This document shows, piece after piece, positions 5,709-26,893 of a stretch of DNA of 64,000 nucleotides. The stretch's first letter is position 1. Each line of letters opens with the position of its first letter. The notes under the pieces are model-generated. The model was not told where the DNA came from. It searched no databases and saw nothing but the letters and a program-made list of their open reading frames with translations. The translations under genes were made by a program, and so were the position numbers. Source of the DNA: Rhizophagus irregularis (Eukaryota; Glomeromycota; Glomeromycetes; Glomerales; Glomeraceae); NCBI RefSeq assembly GCF_026210795.1, contig NC_089442.1, positions 1 through 64,000 of the forward strand. Reading direction: 5' to 3'.

Positions 5709-5725
5709 AGCCAGAATTGGGGTTT

Positions 5726-6820
5726 TCATACTACTGCAAATCCCTTAACTATCAGGACCTTATTTGTTAATTTTGCTTCGCAAGCTTGTCTTTTGCTGTG
5801 CTTTGGATGATTCAGAAACTCCACATGGGTACATCTGAACTCTACATTTTGATTTTGTGTCAAAATTTCTGAAACTTTATACAAAGTATTACAATCTGGA
5901 CATACTGCGTATGTCTTTTCTTGCTTAATGATCTTTAAAAGTTTTTTCGCCAAATAAGATGATGTAGGGAATCTTTCAAATCGTCATTTATCAGCATCTG
6001 ATAAAACTATCTTAAAAAATTTAATAAGTTTATCGATGGCGACATCAGGAAGATGAAATCTCGCCTGATATTTGAATATCCACAAAAGTATCCACGAATC
6101 GTTAAAGTCAATGTTTATGTCAAGATTTCTAAGATCTGATTCATAATCATAGTCATCAAAATCGGGAGCTGTAAATTGTTCGATCAGAACTTCATCTTCA
6201 CTTAAACCACGGTCATCATCTCCAGATACCTCAGAAGCCTCATCATCATCTTCTGTCAAGGATTCGTTATTGTCACTTTCTGTTAAAGACCTGTCGGTCA
6301 AAGAACCATCACTATCGTCGTCATCAGGAATTATATCGTCAATCTTATTGGTACGCTTTCGTCTTCCTGGTCTCTCTAACATTGGTTCATTATCGCTTAG
6401 AGGTGATTCATCATCATCATCTGATGAATATTCTACCGCTCTAATTCTTCTTTTTCCTCTTTCATCGGGAGATTCATCACCATCATCACCATCATCATCA
6501 TCATCGCCAACATCATCATCTGATGTATTCTCTACCACTCTAATTCTTTTTTTTCCTTTTTCATCTGGAGATGATTCTACACTATACAGTTCGTTCCTGG
6601 TACCTTTTAGTTTTGAAGAACTCTGAGATCCAGAAGCAATTGTTTGAAGTCGGTTAACTTCTTCTTGATGTCTTCTGAATGTTCTGGGATCCACTAATTT
6701 ACCACCACCACAATACAACAAACAATTGCATTCGACAAATTTTCTAGTTTTAGGTGCACTATCAGTAACTTTTGTACGATCTTTATTAATGCGATTTTTC
6801 TTTGATTTTGTCATCTTCAA
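5726..6820 (-). pseudogene. N-terminal fragment of Plavaka/Tnp2-like transposase (element 1)
   Basis: The ATG at 6820 starts a basic segment followed by CNCLLYCGGGKLVDPRTFRR, a Cys-rich motif typical of the start of Plavaka/Tnp2-like transposases (compare CNCSECNGKIVDVRTKLNH in element 2). A long Asp/Glu/Ser-rich region follows, then DSWILLWIFKYQARFHLPD, homologous to RQFLWILLWIMSFRKRFNIP in element 2. The frame passes a TGA at 5984-5986 and continues into CPDCNTLYKVSEI and CTHVEFLNHPKHSKRQACEA, a C-x2-C...C-x-H zinc site also present in element 2. After that similarity is lost, so the DDE core and C-terminus (roughly 700 residues relative to element 2) are missing. Confidence 0.75.
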
Positions 6821-7009
6821 TCCGTCAATTTGTAATCAAAATTTTCTCAAAATACATCAATCAGTTAGTTCGCAAGAGAATTTGATCAATTGGCTTTGCG
6901 ATTAATTATTGTATACATCAGAATTGAATTGTGCGAATATTACCACAATTAGATAAATTAAACTATTTATTTTAATCGGTTAATAAAGAGATTGCGAAAA
7001 TTGATACAA

Positions 7010-7345
7010 TTTATTTCTAAATATATCAATTGATTTATTTTTTTATTTTTAAATATATCAATAGTATATAATTTATTAATCTTGCGAAAATTTGATACAA
7101 TTTATTTTTTAAATATATCAATAGTATATAATTTATCCTGAGAAAATTTGATACAATTTATTTTTTAAATATATCAATAGTATATAATTTATTAATCTTG
7201 CGAAAATTTGATACAATTTATTTTTTAAATATATCAATAGTATATAATTTATCCTGAGAAAATTTGATACAATTTATTTTTTAAATATATCAATAGTATA
7301 TAATTTATTAATCTTGCGAAAATTTGATACAATTTATTTTTGTAT
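7010..7345. promoter_or_regulatory. Tandem repeats in the divergent promoter region of element 1
   Basis: Five copies of a unit containing GAAAATTTGATACAATTTAT and AAATATATCAATAGTATATA occur at spacings of about 57-60 bp. Two versions alternate (TTAATCTTGCG and TATCCTGAG spacers), so the higher-order period is about 117 bp. The array lies between the divergent transposase and accessory genes. Candidate shared promoter or protein-binding array; function inferred only from position. Confidence 0.6.
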
Positions 7346-7576
7346 TATACTATTTATTAATTGGTGAAAATTGATGAAATTGATTTATTTAAGTTTAATC
7401 ATAAATATCAATGGTTCGTAAAAGTTTATTTTAAACTATTAAATAAATATATATATATAAGTCTAATTTTTAGACAGACTTTTTTTTTTCTCTCTCGCTC
7501 GTTACCGATTTTTGTAAAAAAAATCCTATATTATTCTATACATAAAAATTTACCGAAATTGTAAATACATTCAAAT

Positions 7577-9640
7577 ATGACTAATAAAAATAAAAAAGAC
7601 AAAAAGTCAAAAAAATCTAAAAAACGTCACCATTCGGATAGTGATTCGGATAGAAAATCTGATAAGCAGAGTAGTACCAAACAAGGGTAATTTAATTTGG
7701 TTGATTTTTATCAAATTCTTTAATTTCTCAATATATTACTTATTCTTCACAATCGATATCTAATGAAAGTGATCCTGAGTTAAGACGTACAAAAAGACGA
7801 CGATCAGAACCTACGAAAAAATAAAAGCCCGCTTTAATTAACATTGTTCAGGACAAGGGAAACAGTGGTATATTTTGAAAATTTACGTTAATCATGCGCG
7901 ATTGAATTCAATATATCACGAATCTAAAGGATGTGAAATAATGAAAGGCAAAAAGCCTATTTTTATTGATTTAGTTAACGAAGACGACGAAGGAAATGAT
8001 GATACGATTCAACAGAATGAGAGAAATAATGACCAATCGACTCAACAGAATGAGAGAAATAATGATTCCAATGAATCCGGTATGTAGTTATATGAAAAAC
8101 TATCACAAATCGATTTAGTTTTAACCCGATTTCCTTTTGTAGCTTTACAGATGCAGGTTGAGGAGTTGACTCGCCTGCTTAAGACTGTTACGAAAGGAAA
8201 GCAGAAGGTAACTGATCCAAAAGAAAATATTATTGACTGGTCCAACGTGGATCTGGAAACTCAAGGTCCAAAGAGCCGAAAGAACCAGTACGTGACCAGG
8301 TCATTGAATAAGCCTAAATATGTGCAAAAATATGGTATACCAGAATCGTCAAAAAGCGTGCGAAGTAGACCATCTCCATCCCCATCCCATCCTCTTCCTC
8401 TTCATCTTCATCAACTTCATCCTCACCATCCTCAAAATCGGCACCATCCTCAAATTCAGCGCTATCCTCAAATTCATCATCATTTCTTCATTACGAAGAA
8501 ATGAATAGAGATCAGAGAAATGCTTTAAGAGTACCGTATTTTATTTTAATTTGTTTTAATCATCCGAATTGCTGCTAATCAATTATGATAATCTCACGAT
8601 TAGGGCGAAATAGTCAGAATAATGGACTGACTTCCAGACGATAAAAGTCTAAATATAAAAAAAACCTTTGAAAGTCAACGAAAAAAAGTGAATAATATCA
8701 TCCCGGTTGTTCAAAAATCAATTAATAAGAAGTTCTTCCCAGTGACCGATGGCGTCATTAAACATGTCATTCATGAACGTCATCGGCACCAACGGGAGAA
8801 ACTTCTTAATGCAAGACGAGGTGCAAATTAGATAGAAAATGATAAAAGAAGGCAGCACGTAAATTCCTGACGAAGTGATGTAAATATTAAATTATTTTGT
8901 TTGATATTACTTTTTCTTATTAATAAATATTTCCTATTATTTATTTAGAAACGTGAAAGAAGATCAAAAATCATCGACAAACTAACCACGTTAAAGGACC
9001 GATTGGTAGATAAATTCTACGATGATGAGCTCTGACCTGTTCAGACCGAAAATCGATACCACAGTCCGGAGGAATCGGAGATCGATAAAGACAACCCAAA
9101 CAAACGTAAGATCATCATCCGGGATCTCAAATGGAGATCGTCTTCTGTAAGTATTCGAGTAATTTTTACCAATCGGTGTATCTTAATTTAATACTATTTT
9201 TATTTGTATAGCTATGTACATTTCTTCGAAATTATGTCGATAGTGCGGCTTCATCAAAGTCTCGACGTGTAAGAAATTGGGAGTATGGTAATTACGCAAC
9301 TAATGAAATCGATGCACCAATTAACGCCCCACGATGGACTAAAGATGGCTACAATGGATCTCTAAAACAGCTTATCGAGAAATATAGTGAAAATAAATGC
9401 TCTTCTCCGGAAGAAGCTGACGAAAACCAGGATCTACCGGAAGAAGATGATCAGGCCGGAGAAGATGAAAATCAAGAAGTTGTTGACGAAAATCAAGAAG
9501 AAGTTGACAAAAATCAAGAAGAAGTTAAAGAAAATCAAGAAGACGAAGAAAATCAGAAAGACGAAGAAGAGGATCAAAATAAAAATAAAAGAGGTGTTAG
9601 TGTTGTTTCTTCTGAATATGATAGTATCAGCAGCAAATAG
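7577..9640 (+). pseudogene. Accessory gene of element 1 (basic/coiled core, acidic tail)
   Basis: A multi-exon gene, reconstructed from open segments and splice-like junctions. It starts MTNKNKKDKKSKKSKKRHHS (7577), has Asn/Gln/Asp-rich repeats (QNERNND) up to about 8079, an intron at 8080-8142, then a helix around MQVEELTRLLKTVTKGKQKV. A Ser-rich segment is read in another frame at about 8360-8470. A basic segment GVIKHVIHERHRHQREKLL (about 8750-8830) follows, then IIIRDLKWRSSS, an intron, and LRNYVDSAASSK (about 9220-9260). The tail repeats ENQEE/D many times and ends at TAG 9638-9640. The RDLKWRS...LRN core matches the accessory gene of element 2 (YDLSWRSEE...LLLRNVLDKHV). Several frame breaks and an in-frame TGA near 9030 suggest decay. 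The acidic frame, not the overlapping Lys-rich one, is the coding frame. Confidence 0.6.
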
Positions 9641-10060
9641 TGGAGTAGTCAAATTATATAAATAACAATTTTAGCAATATCGGTATTTCAATAAAACCGA
9701 TTTTTTAGTATATTAAATATTTTAAATATTTTAAATAAAATCGTAAATTTTTAAATAAAATCGTAAATTTTCGTAAATTTTTAAATAAAAATGTATGGCA
9801 ATCGGAAGATTTCTTATTGTTATAAATTTATCAAAAAGCTATAAATCGGTATACTGATATGTCAAATAGTAAATATTCTATTGGTAACTATTAATACCCG
9901 ATTGTACTCTATTGAATATCCCGATTGGTACCCGAGTATCCTCCTTTTGCGCCATCTTTTGGCAGCAATCGGGTTTACCGATTGATGAAAATTTTTTAAA
10001 AAATAGGGACCAATTGGGTGGAATTCGGTCATCTGATTGGTCCCCAATTTGACATCGTTC
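9641..10060. other. Right subterminal region of element 1
   Basis: No gene seen. The region holds short direct repeats (AAATAAAATCGTAAATTTTT and variants, 9730-9790) followed by several ATCGG/CCGAT-type words (for example ACCGATTGATG, CCCGATTG) close to the right terminus. Such subterminal repeats are typical transposase-binding regions in CACTA-type elements; the role here is inferred. Confidence 0.4.
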
Positions 10061-10094
10061 GACTAGTGATACTATAGATTCGAACACTAACACA

Positions 10095-11290
10095 ATGAAT
10101 TCAAATACTAGTAAAGCACCTTTTGGCAATATTCAGATATCCAATTCTGTAGTAGACCAGCTAAAAATAAAGTAGGACGAGCAGTTACCTCTGATGACGC
10201 ACCTAGTAATAATTTCAACACCGAGTCATTAGAAGATAAGGAAACGGATGATTTCTTGAATAAGGTGCATAAGAAAAAAATTAATGATAAGATTAGAAAG
10301 AGAAAGCGGGAAGAGAAACTTCATCATGAATCAATTGCTCAGAACTCACTTATTTCTCACAATATAAAACCGTTCCCTCAGAGAATGATCAAAGTCATGT
10401 GACTTCGAAAACTGAAGTATCTGTGAACGAAGCAAGACAATGACATGATTCCAAAGGAATCGCTTGATGAAAATCAAATTGTATAACAAGACCTAATACA
10501 TGAATTATGTTTATCCTTATCACCTAAAGATAATGTCAGCTCTACCGAAATCATTAGCTCTTGCGTTAGTTTAGAGAATTTGATTTTGGATTCTACCCAG
10601 CACTTATCTTATTTATTTGAAACAGCAATAAAATCCAGTCAGCAGGAAATATTAAACTGGCACAATTATTTCTTTGAATTTGAGAGCAAGGTTGATGCTC
10701 TTATAGCTGATAGTAGAATTAAAGATAAAACGGCAAGATCAACGATTTATAAAGAAATGAAACCATTTCTTCCTACTAAAATCACACAAGCTAACTTGCG
10801 CAAGAAAACTCATAGGGCTAGAAAGCATCTTATGTTATTTGGGAAAAATGGGATTGGACTAGATAAAATTAAGCTAGTCTCATATAGTGCAACTAAGATT
10901 TTGAAACTAACTAATGCACAAATCCAAAATGTCATAGATCAAGTAAAAAAATATACTAGTGATCATCAGAGTCATATGACTTTAATAAAAACCATTCCCT
11001 CAGGGAATGATCAGATTAAGTACATCAGCAAATGTATTATCTATATTTTCCTCCAATCAATCTAAGCCAACTTATGACCGATCCTATTTTTGCAACAAGA
11101 CATTAAATCAATATCCAAATTTATATAGAGAATTTAGTAGCGAAAATTTTGATTATTATGGTATTACCGATAGACATCATGCCCATTATACAGGTTAAAG
11201 CATGATGATGAAGAAATTATAGAGGATACATATAAAACTGGATCTTATTTTATTAAATGTGAACAGCGTGAAATTGAAATAGTTGCATAG
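10095..11290 (+). pseudogene. Lineage-specific multi-copy gene, frameshifted
   Basis: Open segments on one strand form a protein of roughly 400 residues. It begins MNSNTSKAPFGNIQISNSVV (10095), then a basic/acidic helical segment (KKKINDKIRKRKREEKL). A long intact middle (10580-11065) contains SYLFETAIKSSQQEILNWHN, YFFEFESKVDALIAD, KDKTARSTIYKEMKPFLP and HRARKHLMLFGKNGIGLDKI. The C-terminus is in shifted frames: REFSSENFDYYGITD, then TYKTGSYFIKCEQREIEIVA ending at TAG 11288-11290. I recognise the style as a repetitive Rhizophagus gene family but know no function. At least three frame breaks make this copy a pseudogene. It begins 27 bp after the right terminus of element 1. Confidence 0.55.
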
Positions 11291-11388
11291 TCAGGTCACT
11301 TTGTGACTACATTTGCTTTATTATTATTTTTTTACACCTGTCAACTATTACCTAATTAGATTGATTTGCAATTATAGAAAAAGGCAAC

Positions 11389-11515
11389 ATGGCCAAGTCC
11401 GATAAAATATTAACTCCCAAATATCGCCAAATTAACTGGTTTGCCAAGTATTTTGACAGATAAGATTCGTTCCAATTTATACAAAAAATATAAAAAAGAA
11501 ATTGAATATGAACCA
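11389..11515 (+). pseudogene. 5' part of a multi-copy host gene split by elements 2 and 3
   Basis: The ATG at 11389 starts MAKSDKILTPKYRQIN; after a one-base frame change the sequence reads LPSILTDKIRSNLYKKYKK and EIEYEP up to the element 2 insertion at 11515/11516. Skipping element 2 and one copy of its CCA duplication gives EYEPWQLSENRL in one frame. The product ends (part 3) with a CPIC...H motif. I do not know its function. Confidence 0.55.
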
Positions 11516-11553
11516 CACTAGTCGAAATAAGGCAAATCGGACATATGATAAAT

Positions 11554-11698
11554 AAGGTTGCTTGCCGAAACCTAGAGGTTTAGGCAAGATGGCGTTTCGC
11601 CGAAAAGCGAAATTCTGCCGAAACTATAATAAATCTATAGTAAAATTTTGATGAAACTAATCGTAGGATTTTGAAGAGGTTTAAACAAGCAACCTTAG
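11554..11698. mobile_element. hAT-type MITE nested in element 2
   Basis: A 145-bp insertion begins AAGGTTGCTTGCCGAAAC and ends AAACAAGCAACCTTAG, an inverted-repeat pair shared with the 4.5-kb hAT element at 47243-51712. It is flanked by a perfect 8-bp direct repeat TGATAAAT (11546-11553 and 11699-11706), the length typical of hAT insertions. It is therefore a non-autonomous derivative of that hAT family that landed inside element 2. Confidence 0.85.
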
Positions 11699-11737
11699 TG
11701 ATAAATCAGCTGAAAATCAAACTAAATTCAGCTAAAA

Positions 11738-11860
11738 TTCAGAAAATTTACACAATTCGGCATTTCCGATTTATAACAATCAGAAAATTTACACAATTCG
11801 GCATTTCCGAATTTATAACAATCAGACAATTTACACAATTCGGCATTTCCGATTTATGGT
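11738..11860. repeat. Subterminal triplicate repeat of element 2
   Basis: Three copies of a unit of about 42 bp containing TTTACACAATTCGGCATTTC and CGATTTATAACAATCAG lie at 11738-11860. Further direct repeats follow: TTTGACATTTAATTTAAAAT at about 11870 and 12085, and TTAATTCTTATCCTCCCAAA at about 11998 and 12125. The cluster lies between the left terminus and the transposase 3' end. Probably transposase- or accessory-protein binding sites, by analogy with CACTA elements. Confidence 0.65.
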
Positions 11861-12224
11861 AATAAAAATTTGACATTTAATTTAAAATTAGCATATGATA
11901 AAATCATTAATTTCGGCCAAATTTTAATTTTGGCCAAAATTAAGACCGAGTTTCAGCCTAATTTCAGCATTTTTGGCATTTGAACTTTAATTAAAGTTAA
12001 TTCTTATCCTCCCAAATCCAATAAATCCGGATAAATCATAATAAATATAATAATTCATAATAAATATAATAAATCATAATAAATTTGACATTTAATTTAA
12101 AATTAGCATATGATAAAATTGTTAAAGTTAATTCTTATCCTCCCAAACTCGATCAAATACTAATAAATCTGGATAAATCATAATAAATCCAGTTTTAATC
12201 TATAAATTGACAAATAAGAATTTA

Positions 12225-15200
12225 TTAGCGAATATGGTATTTTCTATTTATTTGATTTACAGCTAAATACTCTCTTGCATTCCTTTGGTCTGAAATTCGG
12301 TAATTTATTGGAATAAATTGACTAAGAATATGATGAACCGGAATAATACAATCACGTGACTCTTGATAAAATTCGGCGCACCATAGCTCAACATTACAAG
12401 TATTAATGTTATTATCACTACTGAAATAATATCGAATATTTCTAGAGCCTGCATGTTTATACCATCGGACATAAGCCAAAAAATGCTCAGCAGGACCATT
12501 CGGAAGGTCAACTGTATGAGTAAAATAATATTGAACTTGACCAGGGTAAACGTCAACATCATCATCAATCGTTATAAATTTTGCTGTAACAAATGAACTT
12601 TTCACATGACGAGACGATATTTTTGAGCCGAATATTTCAGAACCAATTCTGCATCTTCCGAATTGATTCATTCTGACGCGAATAATAATTGAATCTTCGG
12701 GTCCTTCTCCAAATGGTTTTCGGAAGTTATTTGCTGGGTAGGTCACATTATAATAATCTACCATTATGTCAAGCATTTCACTTGACATTATAACTTTTTC
12801 CGAGGAAGGGCCTAGCATTTCTCCTGAAAATGCTTCGCATCCAGCAATCGGAGATTCTTTAATATTTTGCGAGTATAGCAAATATCGCTCCATTTCAACT
12901 GAAGTAAATTCGTCAGGTTCTGAAATTGAACCGACTGAAGGTCTGGTATCAAGTATATCGAGACTTTTTGTATCAACTATTCCAGAACTAACAATATTAT
13001 TAATTTGTTTATCGTTCATAATTCAGCGCATGAGCTCTGGTTCAATTTTCTGATGGCTATTAGGCAAAGAACCTAAAAAATAAATAAAGGAATGGAATTT
13101 AAAATTAATTTTAGAAGAAAAAGGATATTTTTAGAAGTCAGCATCTTACCTAGCACGCCATTCATGCGCTCGAACGAAAAACACCAAAAAGCGTAAAGAG
13201 GCCCAAAATCTTTTGCACATTCGTATAAATGGAACGAAAGGTGAAGGTTCGGAGTTATCATATCTTGACCGTAATTTTGCTCAATTATTTTTACGATTTC
13301 AACTAATTTTTGGTGAGCTTCATCCATTAAATTGGATTGAACAATTCGTTCTACCAAAATCGAGCAAATTCTTACAAAGCGTATAAGAATCTTCTTATCT
13401 ATGCCAGGAAGGTGTTTCCAAAGTGACACCGTGGCATAAATGTTAAAAAATATTCACCACTGATCAGCCGTAAAATTCGCAAAACCTTCGCCACATTCCA
13501 CCTTTCCCGGGATCCTACCTATGTCATCTGGTACTTGGAATTGATTCATTTTCTTTTGAATTTCTTTTAGAGTTTCCAGTTTTAATATATTTTCATCAAC
13601 CCAAATCTGCTTAACAATCCACTTTGCAATGCATAAGAATAGGCAGTGCATTGGATCAATTGATAAAAACCGAATTGGGTCGAAATATGGCAATCTCAGC
13701 AATTCAGACCACCTTACGCCAGTAGTTTTTACAAAGCGATTCCTTGCAGCATTTGAATTGCAGCGACACCATCCAAGGGCATTCTTGCGAAATTGTGCTG
13801 AATCTCGATTGATGAACTATTCGCTCATATTATCCATTCCAGCGAAATTATGTTTATGATTTTCGTAATTTGCTTTCTTCTCACATCTATAACACGATGA
13901 AAGGGCTGAAATATGCCCACATATTTTTCTTGCCGCGGGAATGTCGCACGAAATGAGTATCAGTGCTGCTCAAATTTTTCTTGGTTCTTGGTACTCAAAA
14001 GTGTTATCAAACGTCACTCCGTCCCAAAGTAACACTAATTTGTTGACAATTGGCGCCAAATAATGGTTAATTTGGTGGAGACTCACTTCGTTTGGGCCCG
14101 GCAACAAACCAAGAACCAACATATTTTCACGTTTAAACCGCATATCCTGTGGTAGATTACAAATTGCGGCATATATTACTCCGGTACTATGGATAACACC
14201 ATTATATGGTTGAAACCAGTCAAGATTCAACATTAAACCAAGATTAGAATCAGCCACTTCAGGTCGAAAAAATTTCGCCGAATTTTCATCGCTTGTTTCT
14301 TTAAAATTTTTCCAGACCTGACTGTCATAGATATCAGTTAAAATATTGTCAAATCGTTTGCGTTCAGACCAGTGACGTAAATTTCTTTCGAATCCCAGTC
14401 GGCAATACATTGATGCTAATTGATTTCTGATACTAGCAAATGGAAATATCTTCTCAGATCGAATTTTAATACGGCCATGTAATAACGTTGATCTTTCTGC
14501 TAAAGGCGTCTGGCATTGTTTTAATCTCCTGGATGTCGAATTAGGAAATTCGACATGACTACACTTCATAACTGTAAGATTTCCATTTTGCTGAAATTCT
14601 TCAACTTCCTTTTTATTATATAATTTGTGGCATTTCAGACATGCCGCAAAGTTATGATGTTGATCTTTTAGCCCAAGAACATTTCTTGCTAAGTATAAAG
14701 AACCAGGAAATTCTTCAAAATTAGAACCGCCGATTTCTATCAATAACAGCTTTATGAATTGAATAAGCACTTCTGTTGCTGTTTCTGGAATATTAAATCT
14801 TTTGCGAAAGCTCATTATCCACAGCAAAATCCACAAAAATTGTCTATTGGCATTTGTGTCTGGACTAATTCGATCTTGAAATTGCTCATAAACAGGTGGA
14901 GCATAATTCTCAAAAATTTCAGTATACTCATAATCATTATTATTGCCATTATTGATTTCACTTTCATTTGATTCTTCGTCAGTTTCGCTTGATTCTTCAT
15001 CAGTTATGAATAATTCTGGAGGAATTTCTTCTTCGGTAATTGTTGCTTGTTGATTTGCGTATCTTCTCGAATGTTGTCGATGAAGTAAATCAGTTGATAA
15101 GTCGTCTATTTCCTCTATTTCCATTCGTTGAATTACGTTCCGATTATTATCTGAATCTTCGTCAGACGATACTGGGTTATCTTCTGGTAAAGGATTACCA

Positions 15201-15538
15201 TAATCTTCAGATGATGATAGTAAAGGATTACTATAATCTTCAAATGATGATGGTAAAGAATTACTATAATCTTGAACGACTTCCGAATCTTGGTCATCAT
15301 CCGAATCTCGATCAGCCTTATGGTTCAATTTTGTACGAACATCTACTATTTTTCCGTTACATTCAGAACAATTGCAAGGAACCATTCTTCTGTCATGTAT
15401 ATGTATAATCGAAGTTGATTCTTCAGATTCTTCATCAATTGCTCTAGAGATCGCTCTACTTTTACGAGAAGAGCGAGCTGTAATTGATTCTTCATCATTG
15501 CTAAGTAAAGCAGAAACTGATCTCTTTCGTCTACTCAT
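12225..15538 (-). pseudogene. CACTA/Plavaka (Tnp2-type) transposase of element 2
   Basis: The gene reads from the ATG at 15538 to TAA at 12225 with one intron (13149 to 13073, 77 nt) and encodes about 1,079 codons. Domain order: basic Ser-rich start; CNCSECNGKIVDVRTKLNH (about residues 54-72); a long Asp/Ser/Glu linker; a zinc site CLKCHKLYNK...CSHVEFPN; the transposase core with LGLMLNLDWFQPY, ICNLPQDMRFKRENMLVLGL, LPGPNEVSLHQINHYLAPIV and DIPAARKICG...CYRCEKK; then SIDPMHCLFLCIAKW and LHLSFHLYECAKDFGPLYAF ending in CFSFERMNG. The DPMH and FExxNG motifs are typical of the family. The C-terminal exon contains HFLAYVRWYKHAG. Four in-frame stops (TGA at 13970, 13454 and 13023; TAG at 13817) but no frameshift interrupt it. 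Near-intact but dead unless the stops are suppressed or are assembly errors. Confidence 0.85.
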
Positions 15539-16029: not shown

Positions 16030-18204
16030 ATGTCCCAACAAGAAAAAAAAAAATTACCAAAGTTTATAAATATCCGTCTGAAATTACTCCTGCTGCCACC
16101 GCAGCCACCACTAGCAAAAGCGCTTCTGAAATTCCTCCTGATGCCACAACTAGCAACGAAACTACTCCTGCGCCTGCTACCACTAGCAAATCGACCGTTA
16201 CTTCAAAATCAAAAGTTCAGCATATGAAAGAACAATATAAAAATTTTAAGGTTCCAGATTCCTATTTAGAAAAGCAAAAGGAACTTCGCCATAATTTAGA
16301 CCTTGATGATGATAATCCATCTTTGGAAACTGGTATAATTGTAATAAAATTGCTAAAATTGGTTGCTGTTTTGGTTGCTTTACATTGAAAGTTTGTTTGT
16401 TTCCGAATTTGGTTAATAAATTTTAGAAAATCATAAATTACGTGCGACAATAGCCGATTTGCGTAATAAAAACACGAAGTTGGAGAAAACAAACGTAGAT
16501 ATTTTTAAGGAATTAAAAAGCTTAAAAGAGGATTTCAGTACGCTTATGGAAATTAACGATGCATTCGGTACAGAAAATAAAGAATTAAAAAGAAAAATCA
16601 GAACAAGTGAGATCGATGATATCGAATCCAAGCATCTTTCCAAAAAAGCCAAGGGCAAAAGAAGCGTAGTCCAAATAAGTGATGATGACGATAAAGACGA
16701 AGATGTTGATAACGACTTGATGGATTCCAAATCGAATGCAACTGAAGAATCACCCGAAGAGCCTAACGAAAGAGAAGCAAGGGTTTGTTGAGTTTTAACA
16801 ATCATATTCAATACTAATTTTTGCAACTGATTTCAATACTAATTTCATCTTTTACGACAATTTACAAATTTTTATTAATTTAACACAATTCATATACTAC
16901 TAACTTTTACGAATTACTAATTTTTTACAAATTTTTATTAATTTAACGCGATTCATATACTAACTTTTACGAATTACTAATTTTTTACAAATTTTTATTA
17001 ATTTAACGCGATTCATATACTAACTTTTACGAATTACTAATTTTTTACTAATTTAACGCAAATTCGTATACTAACTTTACAATTACTAATTTTTACTAAT
17101 TTCAACACAAATTCGTATACTAACTTTTACGAACTACCAATTTTTTATTAATTTCAATAACTAACGTTTTTGGCTCCACAAATTTATACTGAATTTTCTA
17201 CTAACATATCTGTTTGTTGCTAATTTTATTATTTTATAATACTTTCTTTAATTTTTCTTTTTCTAAATATCAATTAGATCGAAATGAAATCAATCTTAAA
17301 AACACTTAATGAGAAATATAACTTAAACTACAATGAAACGTTTAATAGTGCAAAAAACATTAAAATTCGACGTAAATTAATTCCCAAAATCTGAAAATCA
17401 CTTGCTCCGAATTATTGACCATCCTTTAACCAGGTAACAAGGTGGTTAAATAGCCTACATAAATCTCGACGATCTAAGTTGAGTTTGAGGATATCCGGCA
17501 AAGAAAGCATGGACAATCGACGAGTTCATGCCAATAATAGATTAAATGATGTATGTAATGTAATCTAGCGGCAAATTAATAATCCATATTAACTCATTTT
17601 AAATTTATCAATCAGAAAAAATTGCGAAGGATAAAGGCTGCGAAAGATCTCTTTAATAAAAAGGATAGCCGAATTATGAGTTATAGAAAACGGGATCTGT
17701 TAAAAATTCTGGCAAATCGTGCATATCATTCACCAGAAGTGAGTGAAACCGAAGATGAAGGTTCAAAATCAGTCATTAATGTTTATGATCTATCGTGGCG
17801 CTCAGAAGAGGTTACTTATTTTATCTTGATAATTTATTTTGCTATAAATTTTCACTAATTCCGATTTTACTTATTTTCACTAATTCTGATTTTACTTATT
17901 TTTACATTTTCCGATTTTATTTATTTTTACATTTTAGTTGAGACTTTTATTAAGAAATGTTCTCGATAAACATGTAAGAGTGGGACAAACGGCGCAGCAA
18001 TTGCGACCTCGGAACTATGATGACGAAATACAATGCTATGATAAAGTACCACCGGATGATGCTCCTGATTGGTCATATGTTGATCAACCGGATATGGTAT
18101 ATGACACAGAATATACAGACAATTTAAATATTGATGATGAAGATTTAGACGCAATTTTGGAAGATAAAGCGGATAAATCTGAAAGTTTTATACAACAAGA
18201 TTAA
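16030..18204 (+). pseudogene. Accessory gene of element 2 (coiled coil, basic core, acidic tail)
   Basis: Five exons can be read with GT...AG junctions: 16030-16332, 16427-16782, 17278-17550, 17616-17810 and 17938-18204. Exon 1 starts MSQQEKKK, crosses a frame change in a run of A residues (about 16042-16051), then is Thr/Ala/Ser-rich (TSKSASEIPPDATTSNETTP). Exon 2 is a coiled coil (LRNKNTKLEKTNVDIFKELK) followed by a nuclear-signal-like KKAKGKRS and an acidic stretch. Exon 3 holds the basic VTRWLNSLHKSRRSKLSLRI and contains in-frame TGAs at 17392 and 17416. Exon 4 has SYRKRDLLKILANRAYHSPE and YDLSWRSEE; exon 5 has LLLRNVLDKHVRVGQTAQQL, DDAPDWSYVDQPDMV and an acidic end. It is homologous to the accessory gene of element 1. 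No known family recognised; DNA-binding or transposase-partner role is inferred from position and charge. Confidence 0.65.
16860..17165. repeat. 60-bp tandem repeat inside an accessory-gene intron
   Basis: The intron 16783-17277 (495 nt) is 4-8 times longer than the others because it carries about five tandem copies of a unit containing ATTAATTTAACGCGATTCAT and ACTAACTTTTACGAATTACT. Two adjacent units (16921-16980 and 16981-17040) are identical over 60 bp; outer units are degenerate. The two perfect units imply recent unequal exchange or gene conversion. Confidence 0.85.
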
Positions 18205-18289
18205 TGGTTGGAATTTCAGAATTCTATTTTATTACTAATTTACTCTTTTTTTTTTATTTTTGCATATTATAGTATGTTTTATTACATAT

Positions 18290-18586
18290 AGGACCCCGGA
18301 TATCTCCAAAACAGGTCATAAGTCACACTTTCGGCAGATTGGCCCATTTTTCAGGAGCTCAAAAAATCGTTTTTTGTAAATATCTCGGCATCCAGTGGTC
18401 CAATTTTGATGAACTTTTTTTTAAATTGTAGAGCTAAATAAGGGCTACAAAATAAAAATAAGTTCATTAAAATTGAATTACTGGATGCTGAGATATTTAC
18501 AAAAAACGATTTTTTGAGTTTCAGCAAAAAGGGGTGTTTTTGGCCAAAAGTCCATTATGACCTTTATATTAGATATCCGGGGTACT
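18290..18586. mobile_element. Foldback MITE with 8-bp target duplication, nested in element 2
   Basis: Termini AGGACCCCGGATATCT and AGATATCCGGGGTACT form 16-bp inverted repeats with one mismatch. The interior is also inverted: GTAAATATCTCGGCATCCAG pairs with CTGGATGCTGAGATATTTAC, and AAAAAATCGTTTTTTGTAAA with TTTACAAAAAACGATTTTTT, so most of the 297 bp can form one hairpin. Flanks carry the 8-bp duplication TTACATAT (18282-18289 and 18587-18594). The length of the duplication suggests a hAT-like (or other 8-bp-duplicating) transposase in trans. Confidence 0.85.
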
Positions 18587-18998
18587 TTACATATCTGAAT
18601 TAATTTTACTTTTTTTTTAGTTTTGCGTATTATATATTATATTTTATAGCATATATAAATTTATTTTACTCTATTTTTTTAGTTTTGCGTATTATAATAT
18701 ATTTTATAGTATATCTGAATTTATAAATTGAATTGTAATTGAATTATATCTGATTTATATCCGATTTATATAATAAATTTAGTTGATTTATGTCTAATTA
18801 ATAGTGTCGAATTTAGTAGTATTTGTTGATTTATATCCGATTTATATCCGATTTCTTATTCTGAATTATATCTGAGTGGCAACCACTTGGAACCCAAACG
18901 GAATATTGCCTTTTTAAAAAATCGGTCAAAATTGAGTTATAAATCAGATTAAAATCAGATGATCAATTTCTATCTGATTTGGACAATTTTGACTAGTG
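18587..18998. other. Right subterminal region of element 2
   Basis: No gene. Contains repeated TTAGTTTTGCGTATTAT...ATATTTTATAG blocks (about 18617-18710) and repeated TTTATATCCGATTTATAT words (18756-18850), ending in the CACTA terminus. CCGATTTATA words also occur in the left subterminal repeats of this element. Confidence 0.45.
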
Positions 18999-19056: not shown

Positions 19057-19069
19057 CATCAGCAAGTTT

Positions 19070-19290
19070 TAAACAGGCGTATAAAGTGTTGAAAAACGCC
19101 ATGTGTTGCTCAACGCTAAAAAACGTAGGGAAACGAACCCTTTGTCAATCAACGCCACCTAAAAACGTTGAAAAACGCGTAAAACAACACCAATTTAAAT
19201 GTAAAACAACATACAGTAAAACAACGATAGTTTAAAAACGTGTATACAATGTATAAAAACGCGTATATTGATATTAAAAATGCGTAAAGC
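19070..19290. repeat. Left subterminal AACGC-rich region of element 3
   Basis: About ten copies of the words AACGCG, AACGCC, AACGTT and AAACAAC are packed into 220 bp, alternating with GTTGAAA or GTAAAAC. The same vocabulary (TTGAACAAC, AACGCGT, GACGCGTATATT) fills the right end. Likely binding sites for the transposase or accessory protein, by analogy with CACTA subterminal repeats. Confidence 0.6.
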
Positions 19291-19692
19291 AATGATTTTA
19301 TTGTATATTATTAATATATATATTATATAAAATATGTAAATTTATTTATGATAAAATACGTATCAATTCAAATACATTATCTAATGTAAATTCCTCTTGT
19401 TATAATTGGATTGCCGCGGATTTTTAAGCGATCAACGTACTAAATTTCCGTTGACATAGCGCCCCTGGTGACACAACCATAACAAGGTGGGAATGTGATT
19501 TGTACAACTGAATCACTTGATTGATCTTTCTACAAACTGAAACGCGATAATTATATTAATATTATTAACTGAATGATATTGCTAAATTGCAATTGATACA
19601 TAATATAATGCATACTAGAATAATACATATAGATTAGAAGACAAAAAATGACAACAACGAATAATATCAAATTATAAAAGTCACGTGAACTT
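19291..19692. other. AT-rich spacer downstream of the element 3 accessory gene
   Basis: No gene or repeat of note is seen between the left subterminal repeats and the stop codon of the minus-strand accessory gene. It presumably includes that gene's 3' untranslated region and polyadenylation signals, none of which can be singled out. Confidence 0.4.
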
Positions 19693-21950
19693 TTATTGCT
19701 CTTCTTCTAAATCAGCAACTTCTAAATCAGCTGCTTGATTATCGTCCGTCGTATGCTCATCATAAACATCATCAACACGATTATCAACTCCAATGATTTC
19801 ATCATCATCGTCAATAGGTGTTATAGGTGTTTTGGGCGAAGACTCACATTCACATTCTTCAGAATCCTAAATAAAGAAATACAATATTACTAGTAATTTA
19901 ATTTAAAACATTACATACAATTCAGTTGAGTACTTACCACGTCTGTATCTGTTATATTTCCAGTCCATGAATCGACAATGTCTGCATCGATTTTTGACGA
20001 AAGGTGTTCCTCGTCAAATATAACTTCTAATACTGACTGAACCCAAATGGCGTTTTCATTTGTACGCTCTTTATCAGATGCAAAAACCGATTTAATTATT
20101 AACGAAATATAAGTATCAGACGACGGATCATCTGAGTCGCTCGGTTTGTATAAATCTTCATGGACCTGTTGAATGTTTTTACTTGCTTTCCATGTTCGCA
20201 TCTGTTGTTTGCTGAAATTATCTTTGAATGGCGTTATTCTATTAATACCGAAAGTACTCCACAAACTTTCTTTCAATTTTCTAATGTAGTAACCTTTTTT
20301 AACGCGATTTGCAGCAAGTAACTATATTTAATAAAATAAACAAGTTGTTATAAATTTGGCAATTAATGACTAATATATAATACAAATACTACTTACTTGT
20401 GAATGCATTCTATCATCCCACAAATAATCGAACGAAACTCCTTTTCTGGACAACTTCGCTGAGTATTTTGGCGGATGTTTCATCATTTTCTAATTTTTCT
20501 TTAAGGCGATTTTTCATTTGTCAGTCGGTTACTCGTCGATGCTCATGAAATAATTCATAAGAAAGATCTTTAATCGCATCCTTAATACATACAAATTGTT
20601 ATATTTAGTAAATAATATAAAGAAATACATAACTTTAAACCATATATTTACGTGATAAAATTCATCTGAGTTTTTGTCTTTCTTTTTCGTTTTACCCTTT
20701 TTTTTAACCTCGACTTCAGTTTCAACGTTGCGATGAGAATCTAATACCGACATTATATTTGAAATCTGGTCTTTTTGTTCGTTTAACATAGCTTCAAACC
20801 TTTCTTGATTATTAATAATCGTGTTGAGTTTTGATGCTGTTTTTTGATTAATTTGTATTAATTTGGCAAATTCACCAGAACTAACTGCGATAAATTATCG
20901 TTAATAAGAATAATAAAAACCAATTTGATAATTTATTAACAAAACAACAATGAACAAACAGTATATATCGTATCTAACCTTCGATCCGTTACTTTAGATG
21001 ATGATGTTGTCGCATTATTATTTGATGGCGATTCTTTACTAATCACTGCCTTAACGCTGGATGATGATGATTTACTAGAACCGGATGCTGCTTTACCACC
21101 AGATGCTGCTTTACCAGACGCTGCTTTACCACCAGATGCTGCTTTACCAGACGCTGCTTTACCACCAGATGCTGCTTTACCAGACGCTGCTTTACCAGAC
21201 GCTGCTTTACCACCAGATGCTGCTTTATCAGACGCTGCTTTACCACCAGATGCTGCTTTATCAGATGCTGCTTTACCACCAGATGCTGCTTTATCAGATA
21301 TCGTTGTTTTAATAGAGGAAGGAGGAGAGAAGGAAGGAGGAGAAATTACCACCGAAGGGATATAAGAGGATATTGTTGATGATTCATTTATTGCCTGATG
21401 AAAACAATAAAATGTATTTAATAAACTAATAATGAATAATATAAACAATAACAAAATTGATAACTGATATTACTTGAGAAGATCCTTTGGTAGTTTTATT
21501 GGTACCGATAATAATCTCATCAATATCTCTATCACGAAACAAATCTAACCTTACAATTTTCGTCTTTTTTGGAGTCTCTATTTGCGAAGCGTCTGAAATT
21601 GTTTGATGATTGGCTTCGGTATCTGTTAATTATAATGTATTTTTAGATATTCGTTCACACAAGTTCAAAAAAAAACTAAAATAAAACCTTTCAAATTATT
21701 TTGTTCGTTGATCTAAAAGATATTAATTATATAAGTATATTTATACAATCATAATAATTTACAACCAAATATATATAATAATTTAAAGTTAAAATAATTA
21801 CTTCTATATTCATACTCGTTGACGATCTAGTAGATCTAGTAGACCTAGTACTAGATCTAGTAGTAGGTTTTGGGCGTTTTAAATTATTAAAATCTAAAGA
21901 GCGTTTGCCGCTGGTTTTATTATTATTATTTTTGTTGTCGTCGTTATCCA
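19693..21950 (-). pseudogene. Accessory gene of element 3 (8 exons, Ala/Ser/Lys repeats, coiled coil)
   Basis: Eight exons fit GT...AG junctions on the minus strand: 21950-21802, 21712-21688 (a 25-nt microexon), 21622-21474, 21394-20979, 20880-20652, 20580-20397, 20321-19938 and 19866-19693. The protein starts MDNDDNKNNNNKTSGKRSLD with Thr/Arg/Ser repeats. It continues with KKTKIVRLDLFRDRDIDE, a KAASGG repeat tract, a coiled coil (FAKLIQINQKTASKLNTIIN), a basic patch, then RKGVSFDYLWDDRMHSQLLA, NRVKKGYYIRKLKESLWSTF and an acidic tail (DDDDEIIGVDNRVDD...LEEEQ). Defects: in-frame TGA at 20521-20523 and a one-base shift near 20480 in exon 6. I do not recognise the family. Sharing an element with the transposase and a charged, coiled-coil make-up suggest a DNA-binding or transposase-partner role (inference). 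Confidence 0.65.
21085..21300 (-). repeat. Coding minisatellite, KAASGG repeat
   Basis: Within exon 4 of the element 3 accessory gene, 18- and 33-bp units encode KAASGG and KAASGGKAASD/G about a dozen times. Units differ mainly by GAT/GGT (Asp/Gly). Codon use is nearly identical between units, which implies recent slippage or conversion. The peptide would be a flexible, positively charged linker. Confidence 0.85.
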
Positions 21951-23109
21951 TTGATAAAAAGATGACTGACAAGAGAGAATTAATTGATTATTAGAATGTG
22001 AGAATGAGAAAAAAAAATATTAGAATGTGAGAAAAAAAGCAATCATTTTTTAACTCTTATGTGTGATGATCTACTTGATTTACCTATACGTAAGTATACT
22101 CAAGTATACTAATGATTAGTATACTTACTTAGTGTCCAGTGTAACTTGTAACAAACATAATTAATGTAATTACTTAACTAGATGTTACTTTAAGACTAAA
22201 TTGCGGCGCAATGTCACGTGTTACAACGATTCATTCGAATTTCAACGCCCACATCGCAAAAAAGTATTAGTCATGTCACGTGTTGCAACGACAAATCTGA
22301 TTCATTTCTTCACTTCGAATTTCAACGCCCACATTGCAAAAAAGTATTAGTCGTTGTTCATCACATTGTTAATCGTTGTTCATCCTTACGAAATCATGTG
22401 ATGTTTCAAATTGAATTTCTGCTGATGAAGTAGACGTGATGAGTAACTATGGACAGCTAGAAATGAAAGCGTTTAACGATGAACAGAACAACTAGTAGTA
22501 GAGGTGAGCAATAAAGAGAAGGAAGAGATTAAATCTGAAGAAGAGAGAAAATTTTAACGGGAAATTGTAAATATCGAGGATGTAAATTAAAACAAGTGAA
22601 ATTTCCAACAAAATATAATTACCTTCATCCAACGCTCGGTTTTGCTTTTGGACGTTCCAGTTTACTGTATTAATTAATCCTTTATTTTATTCGTCGTAAA
22701 AGTACTAATAATAATAATTATGCGTTAATTTCTATGATGTTTGTTGTGTTTGTTGACACCTTAAATGTGAATATTTTCATCAGTATCATTACGCAGTTAA
22801 CTGATGGTATCATTTGATATCCTCACCTAAATATTTAAACGACACGATGATTGATTAATTTAATGTATGTATTTCTTGATTGATCGTAATCAGTAACACT
22901 AACTGTTAACATTGTGTAAACCGTGCAATACGTCAAGCAATACTGTATTGTTAAGTATTGTTAATATTATTGAAGCACATAGTCAAATTATTGTTAAACA
23001 AGTTAATATAATAAATCAACATGTAAAAAACCTTAATGTTTTTATATAAATTAACCTACTTTGCTAGCGTCAAATAAAAAACTTATTCACCATAAATCAA
23101 CTTCAAAAA
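21951..23109. promoter_or_regulatory. Divergent intergenic region of element 3 with CACGTG-bearing duplication
   Basis: The 1.16 kb between divergent ATGs contains an imperfect direct duplication. The word TGTCACGTGTTACAACGATTC at about 22210 and TGTCACGTGTTGCAACGACA at about 22275 are each followed by TTCGAATTTCAACGCCCACA and TTGCAAAAAAGTATTAGTC-like sequence. The palindrome CACGTG is an E-box-type site. A second symmetric cluster, AGTATACTcaAGTATACT...AGTATACTT, lies at about 22090-22130. These are candidate operators for both genes. No other gene is visible. Confidence 0.55.
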
Positions 23110-26100
23110 ATGGCTATATACTCGTGTCCACATTGTGAAAGAGTCTTCAGTCGTCGTGCTTCTCTACGAAATCATGTGAAAACTCACGATGATATAATTG
23201 ATAAAGTTCTTAGAAATTGCTGAAGAAGTAGAACATGAACAAGAGGAAGTGGGTGACGACGAACGACTTGAGGAGGCGAGCTACGAAGAGGGAGAGGAAG
23301 AGAGGGGGAGTACTAATAATGATGAAGTACAAGAGGAGGTGAGCTACGAAGAAGAAAGTGAAGATAATGATGAAGTACTAGAGGATGTGAACTACGAAGA
23401 AGAAAGGGAAGATAATGATGAAGTACTAGAGGATGTGAACTACGAAGGGGAAGGGGAAGACGAAGGGGAAGAAGAAGAGGAAGGGAGCGATAATAATGAA
23501 CAACTAGAAGAGGTGAGCTATGAAGAGGAAGAGGAAGAGGAAGAGGAGGTGAGAAATCAACGTTAAATAAAATTAAAATAATTTATACTTTTGTGTGCGT
23601 CTATATATGTCTATATATAGAAAGCGATCGACATATTTATCAAGTATTTATTGTCTATTAACATCCATATATAGGAAGTGATTGACGAATCAAGAGACAT
23701 TGAAATCGAATATTCGCTAATTGACGTTGAACCAATCCTAACCTTCGAATCTCTTGATATTAGAGTAACAAATATACCAGAATTTCCAAGCGAAGAGTTT
23801 GGAAATTTTATGGAGTTGCTTACTAAATGGAATTTGTCTGATGCATGTAGTAACGATATACTTAAATTTTCAAAAAAGATTTGCCGCGATAATGTAATTT
23901 TACCTACGTCGGTAAAAAAAGGTCGTCAATTGTTGGATCAAATTGTTGTACCACATATTTCTTTTAAAAAAGCGCCTATCATGACATATAAACAAGAAAC
24001 GTATTATCTTCATTATCGTCCGATTTTTGACGTTATAAAGGAATTGTTGAGCAATAAGGATATATTTGCCCATTGTACTTTTAAATTTACACTATTAAAT
24101 CATAACGGAGAAAGAATATATAACGAACAATATAATGGACAATGGTGGGAAAGAGTCCAAAAATCACTTCCTAATGGTGCAAATGTATTGTCAGTAATTT
24201 TATATTCGGATGCTACGACACGTGATCACTTAGGAAAGACCAGCGAACATCCCATTTATTTGACACTTGGTAATATAGTTAGTTGGCGCAGAAATAGGCC
24301 TGATGCCAAAATACTTTTGGGTTATCTGCCGATCCTAAAGGCAAAAGATATTTCACAAAAGAGGTCAAAGAGTTTTCGGTTAGCCAAGCGAGTCCTTTAT
24401 CAATATGCTTTAAATATATTGACACGATCGTTACTTGACTATAATGGTGGATTTGATCTTCAAACAGATAATGGTATAAAGTGGTGTTTTCCGTTTATTT
24501 CCGTAATGTTAGGAGATTTACCAGAAAATGCTGCGGTAACTTTAACATTTAACTCTGTTAATTGTCACCACCCTTGTCATAAATGTTTGGTGGAGCGTGA
24601 GAAGCTGAACAATGTGGAGTTAACAAACGATCAAATTATCTTAAGAACACCAGAAAATATGAGATGTCTTGTTGAACAAAATTCTGCATAACAATATTCT
24701 CTACACGATATGAAAAACATCTTTTGGAATTATCCGTACGTATCACGTGATTTTTAAAGAAAGTGTGTTTATTTTGCCAATTATTTTCTAATATATTTAC
24801 TCGAAAATAAACGATAGTCAGTTAAATATTTATTTGTCAACAATACCTGACCGAATGCATCATCTCGACTTGGGATTGTTTAATTATCAAGTGACCTACA
24901 CAAGGGTGTTGTTAAAAGAATTGTGTGGTCAAATAGCGGTTGACGAACTTGATAATCGTTTGGATAAAATCCCACGATTTCCTGGCCTTAAGATATTCAA
25001 GAATGGCCTGGAAAATATTAAGCGGTTTACTGCCAATGAATTTCGGAATATGATGAAGGTATTTGTTTTCGTCATAGAAGGAATAGTCATAAACCACCAC
25101 AAATCATCGATAAGTACATCCCGAGCCAAACGATCTGATGAAGCATTGGTTAACGTGTATTATTATTGGAATAAGATGTATTTATACAGCCGACGGGAGT
25201 ATTTTAAGGAATCAGAGCTGGTGATTTTTGATGTATGATAGCGAGATAATATGATGATTAGTTTTTTATGAATATTGCAATTAACATGATTATATTTTAT
25301 TTTGTTTAAAGAATCTAATCAAACAATGGGCAAAGAGCTTTATAAAACTATTTAAAGAATATTCTCTATCAGAACTTCGATTACCAAAGCTGCATAATTG
25401 GTGCTATCATATCATTAAGACAATTAGAGAATATGGAGCAATCAACGGGTTTACGACGGAAACGTATGAATTTTTACATAAAGAAGCCGTAAAAATACCC
25501 TATAGGTCTAGTAATAAGCGTGACCCAACAGATCAAATGATTAAATCGGTTGGTATTACAGCTAGTACGATATTCAATGCATTATCACAAATTAATATTG
25601 TTATATTATATATAGGTTTACCGAAAAAAAATAATTAAATACTTACTTCAGCGTACAAATGTTAATAGACGCAAACAAAAAACTCTAATGAATAGTTTGT
25701 TAGGCACATTTAATTTGCAAGATTTTGATGCGTTTTTCAATAATTACCGATCAAACAATAGCTTGGCCGGTGAAGCTCTAACGGCTCTAGAATATTTTCT
25801 GGAATCGTTAAACGAGTTTTTAGATTTATGTGAAGGGTTAACCGATAATGAAACTATTAATATTAGTTGGTATAGTTATGCTAATATTTCTTCAAGCGGG
25901 GATTACATTAGAGCAAAAAGCTTGTATTATAACGAACCATCATTTAGTGATGTGTCAATCAGCATGAGCGAGGAAGAGTCTGAAGATTATAATACAGCCG
26001 AAGGTGGTGCATGTTTTGGCAAGGTACAGAATTTTATTTAATATTGAACTACTAACGAATGATAATCCAAGCAATAACTTACTTATTTTATATTTAGGTT

Positions 26101-26331
26101 CTTATGTTGATTAACGTTAAAATTATCGAAAAAGATTTGTCGTTTGATCTTGCCCTTGTACAATGGTACGATTTTTGTAATTCAAGACAATTATACAAAT
26201 ATGATTGTCCTTGGTTGAAGATTATAAACACGTATAACTTTGTGCCTATTGAATCAATTATAGAATTGGTACAAGTAGTTCAACGTGCCGAACGACAAAA
26301 TGAATATTTTGTTAATACATTTATGTTTTAA
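23110..26331 (+). pseudogene. Plavaka-like transposase of element 3, two lesions
   Basis: Six exons fit: 23110-23548, 23675-24739, 24822-25232, 25312-25548, 25616-26023 and 26098-26331, giving about 930 residues. Exon 1 starts with a C2H2 finger (YSCPHCERVFSRRASLRNHV, then KTH) and a Glu-rich tract. The DDE core has LSVILYSDATTRDHLGKTSE, HPIYLTLGNI, DAKILLGYLPIL, FPFISVMLGDLPE, CHKCL, FWNYPY, then IPDRMHHLDLGLFNYQ after an intron. The C-terminal region has LRLPKLHNWCYHIIKTIREY, GAINGFTTETYEFLHKE, YKYDCPWLKII and ends NEYFVNTFMF. Two defects: a frame change near 23211 right after the finger, and TAA at 24689-24691 in place of a probable Gln codon. All splice sites look intact, so decay is recent. 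Compared with elements 1 and 2 it is a distinct Plavaka lineage. Confidence 0.85.
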
Positions 26332-26572
26332 TTTCGATAAATTGCGTAAAACAATAAATACAGTATATTATACTTGCAAGTATTTAGTTAGTAGAGATAA
26401 TTAATATGTTGTTTAGTAAAGTTAAAATGATATGATAATTATAGTATAATTATACTTCGCGTTCACTGGCAGTGAAAAACGCGTATTAAGCTTACATTAC
26501 ATAAAACACGTGATGCAATAAAATTTTTTTTTAAATATTAATTATAATATATGTATATATATACTTAAATTA

Positions 26573-26652
26573 AATGGTACAATGGTTAGGTCGTGAGATT
26601 TGACGTATTAATAGTGTAATTGAGGTAATCGGTTCAGTTCCTAAGGTGAGCA
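26573..26652 (+). repeat. Possible tRNA-derived (SINE-like) sequence
   Basis: TGGTACAATGGTTAGG resembles a pol III A box (T-R-G-Y-N-N-A-N-N-G-G), and GGTTCAGTTCC, about 50 bp downstream, resembles a B box (GGTTCRANTCC). The spacing fits a tRNA, but D- and T-stems pair poorly and no acceptor stem is evident. It is therefore at best a degenerate tRNA or SINE remnant, sitting inside element 3 downstream of the transposase gene. Confidence 0.3.
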
Positions 26653-26689
26653 AAATAAATATAATTTAATTAATATATTATATATATAG

Positions 26690-26880
26690 TTGTGTTAATA
26701 TACAGTGCGTTGAACAACAATGCATAATGTGTTGAACTACACATTAGAGTTGAATGACGCGTATATTAACATTAAGCGTTGATATACTCCAGTATACGGG
26801 TGTTGATTAATATTGTAAAACGCGTTGAACAACTAGCTGGTGTTGATCAACGCGTATACTGGTGTGAATCAACACTTTTC
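26690..26880. repeat. Right subterminal AACGCGT/GTTGA-rich region of element 3
   Basis: Contains AACGCGTTGAAC, CAACGCGTATACT, GACGCGTATATTAACATTAA and several GTGTTGATTAA words within 190 bp, mirroring the left end; an isolated AACGCGTATTAAG lies nearby at about 26478. It ends directly at the inverted terminal repeat. Confidence 0.6.
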
Positions 26881-26893
26881 AAACTTGCTGATG

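Follow-up and report, generated by a model that had tools for sequence, protein, structure and literature searches.

The first 64,000 nucleotides of contig NC_089442.1 of Rhizophagus irregularis (C14:1-64000, hereafter the window) contained three transposons, E1, E2 and E3, each pairing a transposase gene with a multi-exon accessory gene read in the opposite direction. Their sequences suggest that two transposon lineages, EnSpm/CACTA (E1 and E2) and Plavaka (E3), carry such a back-to-back second gene, the protein of which is probably end-binding. The genes and ends of the three elements were followed through the genome (146.7 Mb in 32 contigs); exon limits are approximate throughout, and splice sites were inferred from the alignment of copies.

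E2 occupied positions 11516-18998, with the termini CACTAGTC and GACTAGTG and the target duplication CCA flanking it on either side. Its transposase (PF02992 part at 12225-15538, minus strand) matched PF02992 Transposase_21 above the cut-off (E 6.3e-8), and the accessory gene (16030-18204, plus strand) consisted of exon pieces at 16030-16331, 16426-16782, 17278-17553, 17616-17810 and 17938-18204, with a tandem array in an intron (16861-17154). The window copy of E2 was not intact: it had in-frame stops in the transposase, noticed on reading, stops in exon 3 of the accessory, and two later insertions. One lay at the left end (~11547-11700, limits approximate), formed an inverted repeat and was absent from the aligned copies, while the other, at the right end (18287-18589), was a palindrome of ~300 bp with inverted repeats, resembling a miniature inverted-repeat transposable element, which was skipped in the alignment of L001-L004.

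E1 (5736-10068) was missing its left part and ended on the right in GACTAGTG. It was delimited by homology to four copies elsewhere (L011-L014), which begins at ~5736 and continues further in those copies, so that they carry more of the transposase than the window does. Only an N-terminal part of the E1 transposase was present (5736-6814, minus strand), recognised from the list of open reading frames and by tblastn homology to the E2 transposase; its frame of 283 amino acids gave no Pfam match. The spacer held a tandem array (7042-7341), followed by the accessory gene (7577-9640, plus strand), which was traced by tblastn across copies in pieces at 7577-7687, 7944-8081, 8145-8366, 8658-8858, 8949-9146 and 9212-9640. 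The window copy of this gene had stops in exons 3 and 4. An identical in-frame TGA in exon 4 (window 8949-9146) was seen in the window, L013 and L014, and the accessory copy at C1:3816256 was listed without a stop.

E3 (19057-26893) ran from CATCAGCAAG to CTTGCTGATG with the target duplication AT. Its transposase gene (23108-26332, plus strand) began with a C2H2-like finger, seen by eye, and contained a Plavaka domain at 23981-24730 (PF18759, E 2.4e-32, 112.9 bits against a cut-off of 26.3). The accessory gene (19699-21951, minus strand) comprised a basic first exon (21808-21951), a coiled-coil exon (~20656-20894), a core exon (19914-20321) and an acidic last exon (~19699-19870), all on that strand.

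The ends agreed with the domain matches. CAC..GTG termini were found at both ends of E2 and of its relatives L016 and L018, and at the right end of E1; among five EnSpm elements with both ends, three had an exact 3-bp duplication (E2 CCA, L016 CTT, L018 ACG), and in two, L001 and L020, it was not exact. E3 had CATCA..TGATG termini, and all six E3 copies printed (E3 and five elsewhere) had a 2-bp duplication (AT, TA, AA, TA, AT, AA). EnSpm elements have been described with CAC..GTG ends and 3-bp duplications, and PlavakaB with CATCA..TGATG and 2 or 3 bp (Kojima 2025, PMC12730594), and by these criteria E1 and E2 fit EnSpm and E3 fits PlavakaB.

Some statements of an earlier note, made from the letters of the window, can be judged at this point. 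Its single 'Plavaka/Tnp2-type' transposase has to be replaced by two lineages, E2 carrying PF02992 and E3 PF18759. Its three paired elements each had a divergent multi-exon accessory gene, but E1 was cut at ~5736, with a partial transposase and no left end. The repeat-rich intergenic region that it ascribed to all three was present in E1; the E2 array was intronic, and the E3 spacer had no long tandem array. Its placing of both genes of E2 and E3 within matched termini was borne out by the ends and flanking duplications, and the same holds for L016 and L018, which also carried transposase and accessory inside the same termini.

The accessory proteins fell into two families. Exon 4 of the E1 and E2 accessories was 36% identical (E 2.6e-7 and 6.5e-7), in line with the homology noticed earlier, and an alignment of eleven cores from ten families of EnSpm accessories had invariant H-S-x-E-x-S and W-x-S motifs. 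Mushroom proteins may have a similar 'SSDE..WRS' pattern. A comparison of the EnSpm and Plavaka accessory profiles found no detectable similarity (probability 0.2%), and the E3 accessory thus remained unrelated-looking, as had been claimed. The common make-up proposed for all three was also found: first exons were basic (isoelectric points 10.3 in E1, 9.1 in E2 and 11.4 in E3), last exons acidic (4.2, 4.1 and 4.1), and the coiled coil was judged by eye.

The claim that the accessory proteins match nothing known held for Pfam and PDB, where neither family had a credible match, nor was there a Myb/SANT match. The best PDB profile matches, TMH4C4 for the EnSpm accessory (30 residues, E 5e-4) and a transcriptional regulator for the Plavaka accessory (E 0.027), were judged to be chance. 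Matches confined to single members, among them those to PADR1_N (0.01) and an LMP repeat (0.005) and that of the E3 coiled-coil exon to a Cpf1 domain (5e-4), were below the curated Pfam cut-offs and were attributed to composition. Viral contigs scanned with the EnSpm accessory alignment gave 10 pattern matches and no relative. The plant family PF03004 had no match in the genome, a null result that is uninformative because control genomes were equally silent.

Genome-wide, EnSpm accessories and transposases were found together far beyond chance. The search with the E1-type accessory core gave at least 157 matches (332 candidates, 150 of them scored), all but a few of which were listed, and 125 accessory loci were kept from the listed rows, second-exon rows of kept loci being dropped; the PF02992 search gave at least 160 matches (393 candidates, 150 of them scored), of which the listed 150 were used for pairing. 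Among the matches listed, 32 of the 125 accessory loci lay within 8 kb of a transposase, with ~2 expected by chance; 27 of these pairs were divergent, four had the accessory on the same strand behind the transposase, and one was arranged otherwise. Reading of 21 accessory-bearing stretches (L001-L004, L011-L025, L032 and L033) extended the pairing. L032 and L033 had been picked for their transposase, and the remaining 19 by accessory; a transposase was present in 16 of the 19 and absent from L004, L015 and L017. For three of the 16 (L019, L023, L024), the pairing had been established before they were picked. Four stretches (L020, L021, L022, L025) were unpaired by the listed matches, yet held a transposase on reading. 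L011 and L012 contained the first accessory exons only.

Further features were seen in some of these stretches. L017 (C20:1750800-1759200) had, at ~3800-8000 beside the accessory exons, helicase-like frames and frames like the protein-primed DNA polymerase of Mavericks, both by eye. L015 (C10:4805500-4814000) had a hAT transposase-like frame, also by eye, at 2399-4759 within the accessory gene, and a PF02992 match lay ~9 kb off, outside the stretch read. In L004, an exon 4 piece of a different EnSpm-type accessory lay at ~4465-4626, ~1.7 kb before the E2-type one.

Linkage was also seen in the Plavaka elements. A DNA search with the E3 transposase gave nine full-length matches at 95% identity or above, plus partial and distant ones, and one with the E3 accessory gave 11 copies at 93% or above and one short weak match. 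Autonomous copies lacking the accessory, which the earlier note had named as evidence that would tell against it, were looked for, and all nine near-full E3 transposase copies listed were paired with an accessory. In the stretches read around the remaining two accessory copies, L009 and L010, nothing matched a transposase exon; L010 had kept both ends and the duplication and lost most of the transposase. At the protein level, the E3 core exon gave 120 matches at E <=0.1, those outside the E3 family mostly weak (19-33% identity), and the Plavaka search gave 123. An accessory match lay within 8 kb of 67 of the 123 Plavaka matches, with ~1.6 expected by chance. The nearest accessory was upstream on the opposite strand in 62 of the 67, at a distance of 2.8-5.0 kb from the Plavaka match, downstream on the same strand in four and downstream on the opposite strand in one. 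Conversely, 40 of the 120 accessory matches lay more than 8 kb from any of the Plavaka matches; outer members of arrays were among these.

Such arrays suggest that some EnSpm elements hold two accessory paralogues and that some Plavaka loci apparently hold three to five. In the three-gene stretches L021 and L022 (EnSpm family F5), the transposase had a divergent accessory on one side and, behind it, a paralogue of that accessory with 44% identity. The same outward layout was shown by eleven pairs of accessory loci, L021 and L022 included, at spacings of 7.7-12.2 kb. At five Plavaka places (C14:150118, C18:1205656, C1:3797996, C7:3699177 and C32:41655), one divergent accessory match was accompanied by two to four downstream ones ~3 kb apart. 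In the one that was read (C1:3793800-3809300), one divergent and three downstream cores were found, the downstream three being 87-90% identical; its ends were sought and not found, and its accessories presumably lie in one element.

Transposase and accessory also diverged in step. Over ten EnSpm families, the distances of the two proteins were correlated (Mantel r 0.805, 1/9999 permutations; r 0.788, 2/9999, when the other F5 paralogue was used), while accessory identity (19-76%) was below transposase identity (45-82%). Between families, the ratio of nonsynonymous to synonymous differences per site (pN/pS) was ~0.2-0.4 in exons 3 and 4 of the EnSpm accessory, 0.3-0.5 in exon 5 and 0.58 in the coiled-coil exon, next to 0.16-0.34 in transposase pieces; these values are rough because synonymous sites were near saturation. 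Within the E2 family there were few changes and no constraint was seen. In the Plavaka accessory, pN/pS was 0.37-0.43 where L030 was paired with the L026/L027 set, and the three tandem copies gave dN/dS (the corresponding rate ratio) of 0.5-1.2.

Short repeats specific to the family were concentrated near the ends of several elements. AATCGG/ATCGGA occurred 6-9 times per end in L016 and L018, a density reached in 0/1000 shuffles and in 0/865 and 0/853 interior pairs, respectively, and 3 and 4 times at the ends of E2 (6/1000 shuffles). The motif AATCGG, found in ends of the L016/L018 type, was then tried on E1, where the right subterminal region (9641-10068) contained seven (0.49 expected), L013 eight (0.39 expected) and the left flank of L014 five (0.26 expected), each with 0/2000 shuffles. 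In 800-bp gene flanks, an excess on one side was found in L019 (2/500), L020 (0/500) and L025 (11 against 0.71 expected, 0/500). E3 had a different motif, CGTTGA, with five in the left (19057-19456; 0.21 expected) and four in the right subterminal region (26494-26893; 0.17 expected), each with 0/2000 shuffles; taken as paired ends, these counts were reached in 1/1000 shuffles and 9/889 interior pairs. Spacers were without AATCGG excess except in E1 (2 against 0.19 expected, 7/500), and the E3 spacer had two CGTTGA against 0.7 expected (76/500). CpG decay, a methylation footprint, had been expected because of the in-frame stops, but CpG was undepleted in five of the six elements measured (E1, E2, E3, L016 and L020, 1.24-1.45); L028 was depleted (0.76).

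The maize element Spm/En needs both TNPD and TNPA, the latter a protein that binds subterminal repeats (PMC2613891). By analogy, I favour, with moderate confidence, the reading that the accessories are TNPA-like end-binding partners made from a separate, divergent gene, for which I infer DNA binding, pairing of the ends, a need in transposition and co-expression. One gene would encode the transposase (EnSpm in E1 and E2, Plavaka in E3), and the gene on the opposite strand, across a shared spacer, an accessory that is basic at its N-terminus and acidic at its C-terminus and contains a coiled coil and a conserved core. The accessory would bind the family-specific short repeats crowded towards both ends (CGTTGA in E3; AATCGG in E1, in E2 and in some relatives), and its coiled coil would pair the element ends and aid cutting there by the transposase, as TNPA does in Spm/En. 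The back-to-back layout would keep both genes together and perhaps have them co-expressed. Since the accessory probably binds ends, the plant-type two-protein design seems to be present here in another form. The fungal two-component system proposed in the earlier note thus gains from genome-wide linkage, EnSpm co-divergence, constraint on EnSpm exons and the end repeats, although the three elements are not of one kind. A wider reading is more tentative and, on balance, falls a little short of my assent: most EnSpm and Plavaka elements here may be obligate multi-component transposons, with two unrelated partner families separately acquired in the same layout and some multiplied, perhaps following changes in end repeats or escaping control.

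A number of results weigh against TNPA-like partners. No transposase lay within 8 kb of 93 of the 125 EnSpm accessory loci among the matches listed, and 56 of the 123 Plavaka matches had no listed accessory partner at that distance. In favour of pairing, of four loci chosen for lacking a nearby accessory match, two from EnSpm transposase families and two Plavaka, three had an accessory by sequence and the fourth by eye only: L032 and L033 each held a diverged accessory by reading, though no accessory match lay near the transposase, L035 a stop-split one (profile hidden Markov model E 1.7e-7 and 4.7e-6), and L034 a frame that resembled it and was placed likewise, which the accessory model did not detect at E <=1. 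The L033 accessory was tail to tail with its transposase. Constraint is not established for most Plavaka accessory pairs, distant ones (20-30% identity) giving pN/pS of 0.6-0.9, and an AlphaFold2 model of the E3 accessory core alone was unusable (mean predicted local distance difference test score 42.1). The repeats were uneven as well. The AATCGG count of E2 was unexceptional against interior pairs (64/885), that of L020 was weak by both measures (76/1000 shuffles, 143/910 interior pairs), and the E2 copies L001 and L002 had 0-2 in their 800-bp gene flanks. No clear excess was found in such flanks of L021-L024, L032 and L033 (families F5, F6, F7, F9 and F10), the ends of which were not located. 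AATCGG also occurred inside several EnSpm gene blocks at 1.3-2.7 per kb, against 0.7 in the window, and the Plavaka element L028, with both ends known, had no significant motif (808/1000 shuffles).

Binding to repeats would also be expected of an anti-silencing factor acting outside the cutting complex, like Arabidopsis VANC or Spm TnpA in demethylation. VANC binds short repeated motifs in the noncoding parts of the elements that encode it, and for TnpA a correlation between activation and demethylation has been described (PMC10398659). Family-specific motifs do exist here; they are at the ends, however, and mostly absent from the promoter spacer, that of E1 excepted, and CpG was undepleted in most elements measured. 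I regard this explanation as unlikely, and still less likely one in which the accessory only regulates or carries the transposase. It could do so by repression, by activating the shared promoter or, like the Myb-like second protein of Harbinger-type elements, by assisting nuclear import. A coiled coil and an acidic tail could suit such roles, related transposons encode a transposase together with a Myb/SANT protein (PMC12730594), and multiplied accessories could mean dosage control, but no Myb-like or other known domain was found and the repeats sit at ends, not in most spacers. That the accessory is a mere passenger, a host gene or fragment caught by chance with no role in transposition, would agree with the many degraded copies and with the majority of EnSpm accessory loci that had no transposase nearby among the matches listed. 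Against it stand the same layout, seen 62 times among the Plavaka matches and at 27 of the EnSpm loci, the correlated divergence over ten families, the constraint on EnSpm exons, and the four stretches that held a transposase despite having no listed neighbour, which together make a passenger very improbable.

If the accessories are TNPA-like partners, the closest parallel would be plant CACTA elements, in which transposases stay similar while TNPA-like proteins and repeats diverge and are dissimilar between plants (PMC2613891). Shared with them are CACTA ends with a 3-bp duplication (E2, L016, L018), repeats near some of the ends, and a conserved transposase of the Transposase_21 type beside a faster-evolving partner. 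The plant partner, however, comes by splicing from the region of the transposase gene (PMC2613891, PMC1636069), whereas here, as read from DNA alone, it is a separate gene on the opposite strand, present several times in some elements, and has, at the thresholds used, no Pfam match to a plant family. The earlier view that nothing like this was known is not supported, given plant TNPA and TNPD and the TNPA-like second protein proposed for SmTRC1, a CACTA-like element of Schistosoma mansoni (PMC1636069). The SmTRC1 protein is made by alternative splicing (PMC1636069) and is likened here by description only. A TNPA-like partner outside plants has thus already been proposed, and the plan with a separate divergent gene is what differs here.

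Other elements with a second protein offer further comparisons. Fungal PlavakaB shares with E3 the Plavaka transposase, the CATCA..TGATG ends and a 2-bp duplication (PMC12730594), but the extra gene of some PlavakaB is a TET/JBP dioxygenase, unlike the coiled-coil protein of E3, which looks unrelated and has no Pfam match. Harbinger-type (PHIS) elements combine a transposase with a separate DNA-binding Myb/SANT protein (PMC12730594), which resembles the present pairs insofar as the accessories would bind DNA; they differ in transposase family, and the accessories lack a Myb/SANT match. VANDAL elements of Arabidopsis encode a second protein, VANC, alongside family-specific short repeats (PMC10398659), but VANC counters silencing, whereas the repeats here are at ends and CpG was undepleted in five of six elements. 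A fungal pair of this kind was not found in the partial collection of literature searched on CACTA/EnSpm, Plavaka and TNPA, and in the available text of a paper on R. irregularis (PMC11075540) the word 'accessory' is absent and no accessory gene is mentioned.

The accessories would thus supply a probable missing partner for fungal CACTA and Plavaka elements. If transposition needs them, the transposase by itself would not suffice in an assay, and copies that are not autonomous would have to draw on two proteins. With the partner encoded by a gene of its own, TNPA-type function could be tested in organisms other than plants. The ten EnSpm families, whose end regions come from a single genome, also lend themselves to the study of joint change in a transposon's binding protein and the sites it uses. 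The analysis also marks two large protein families without a Pfam model.

Elsewhere in the window, the ~1.4 kb between E1 and E2 (10069-11515) contained an open frame at 10487-11065, and a further open frame at 29822-30646 had two RING-like cysteine/histidine patterns, recognised by eye.

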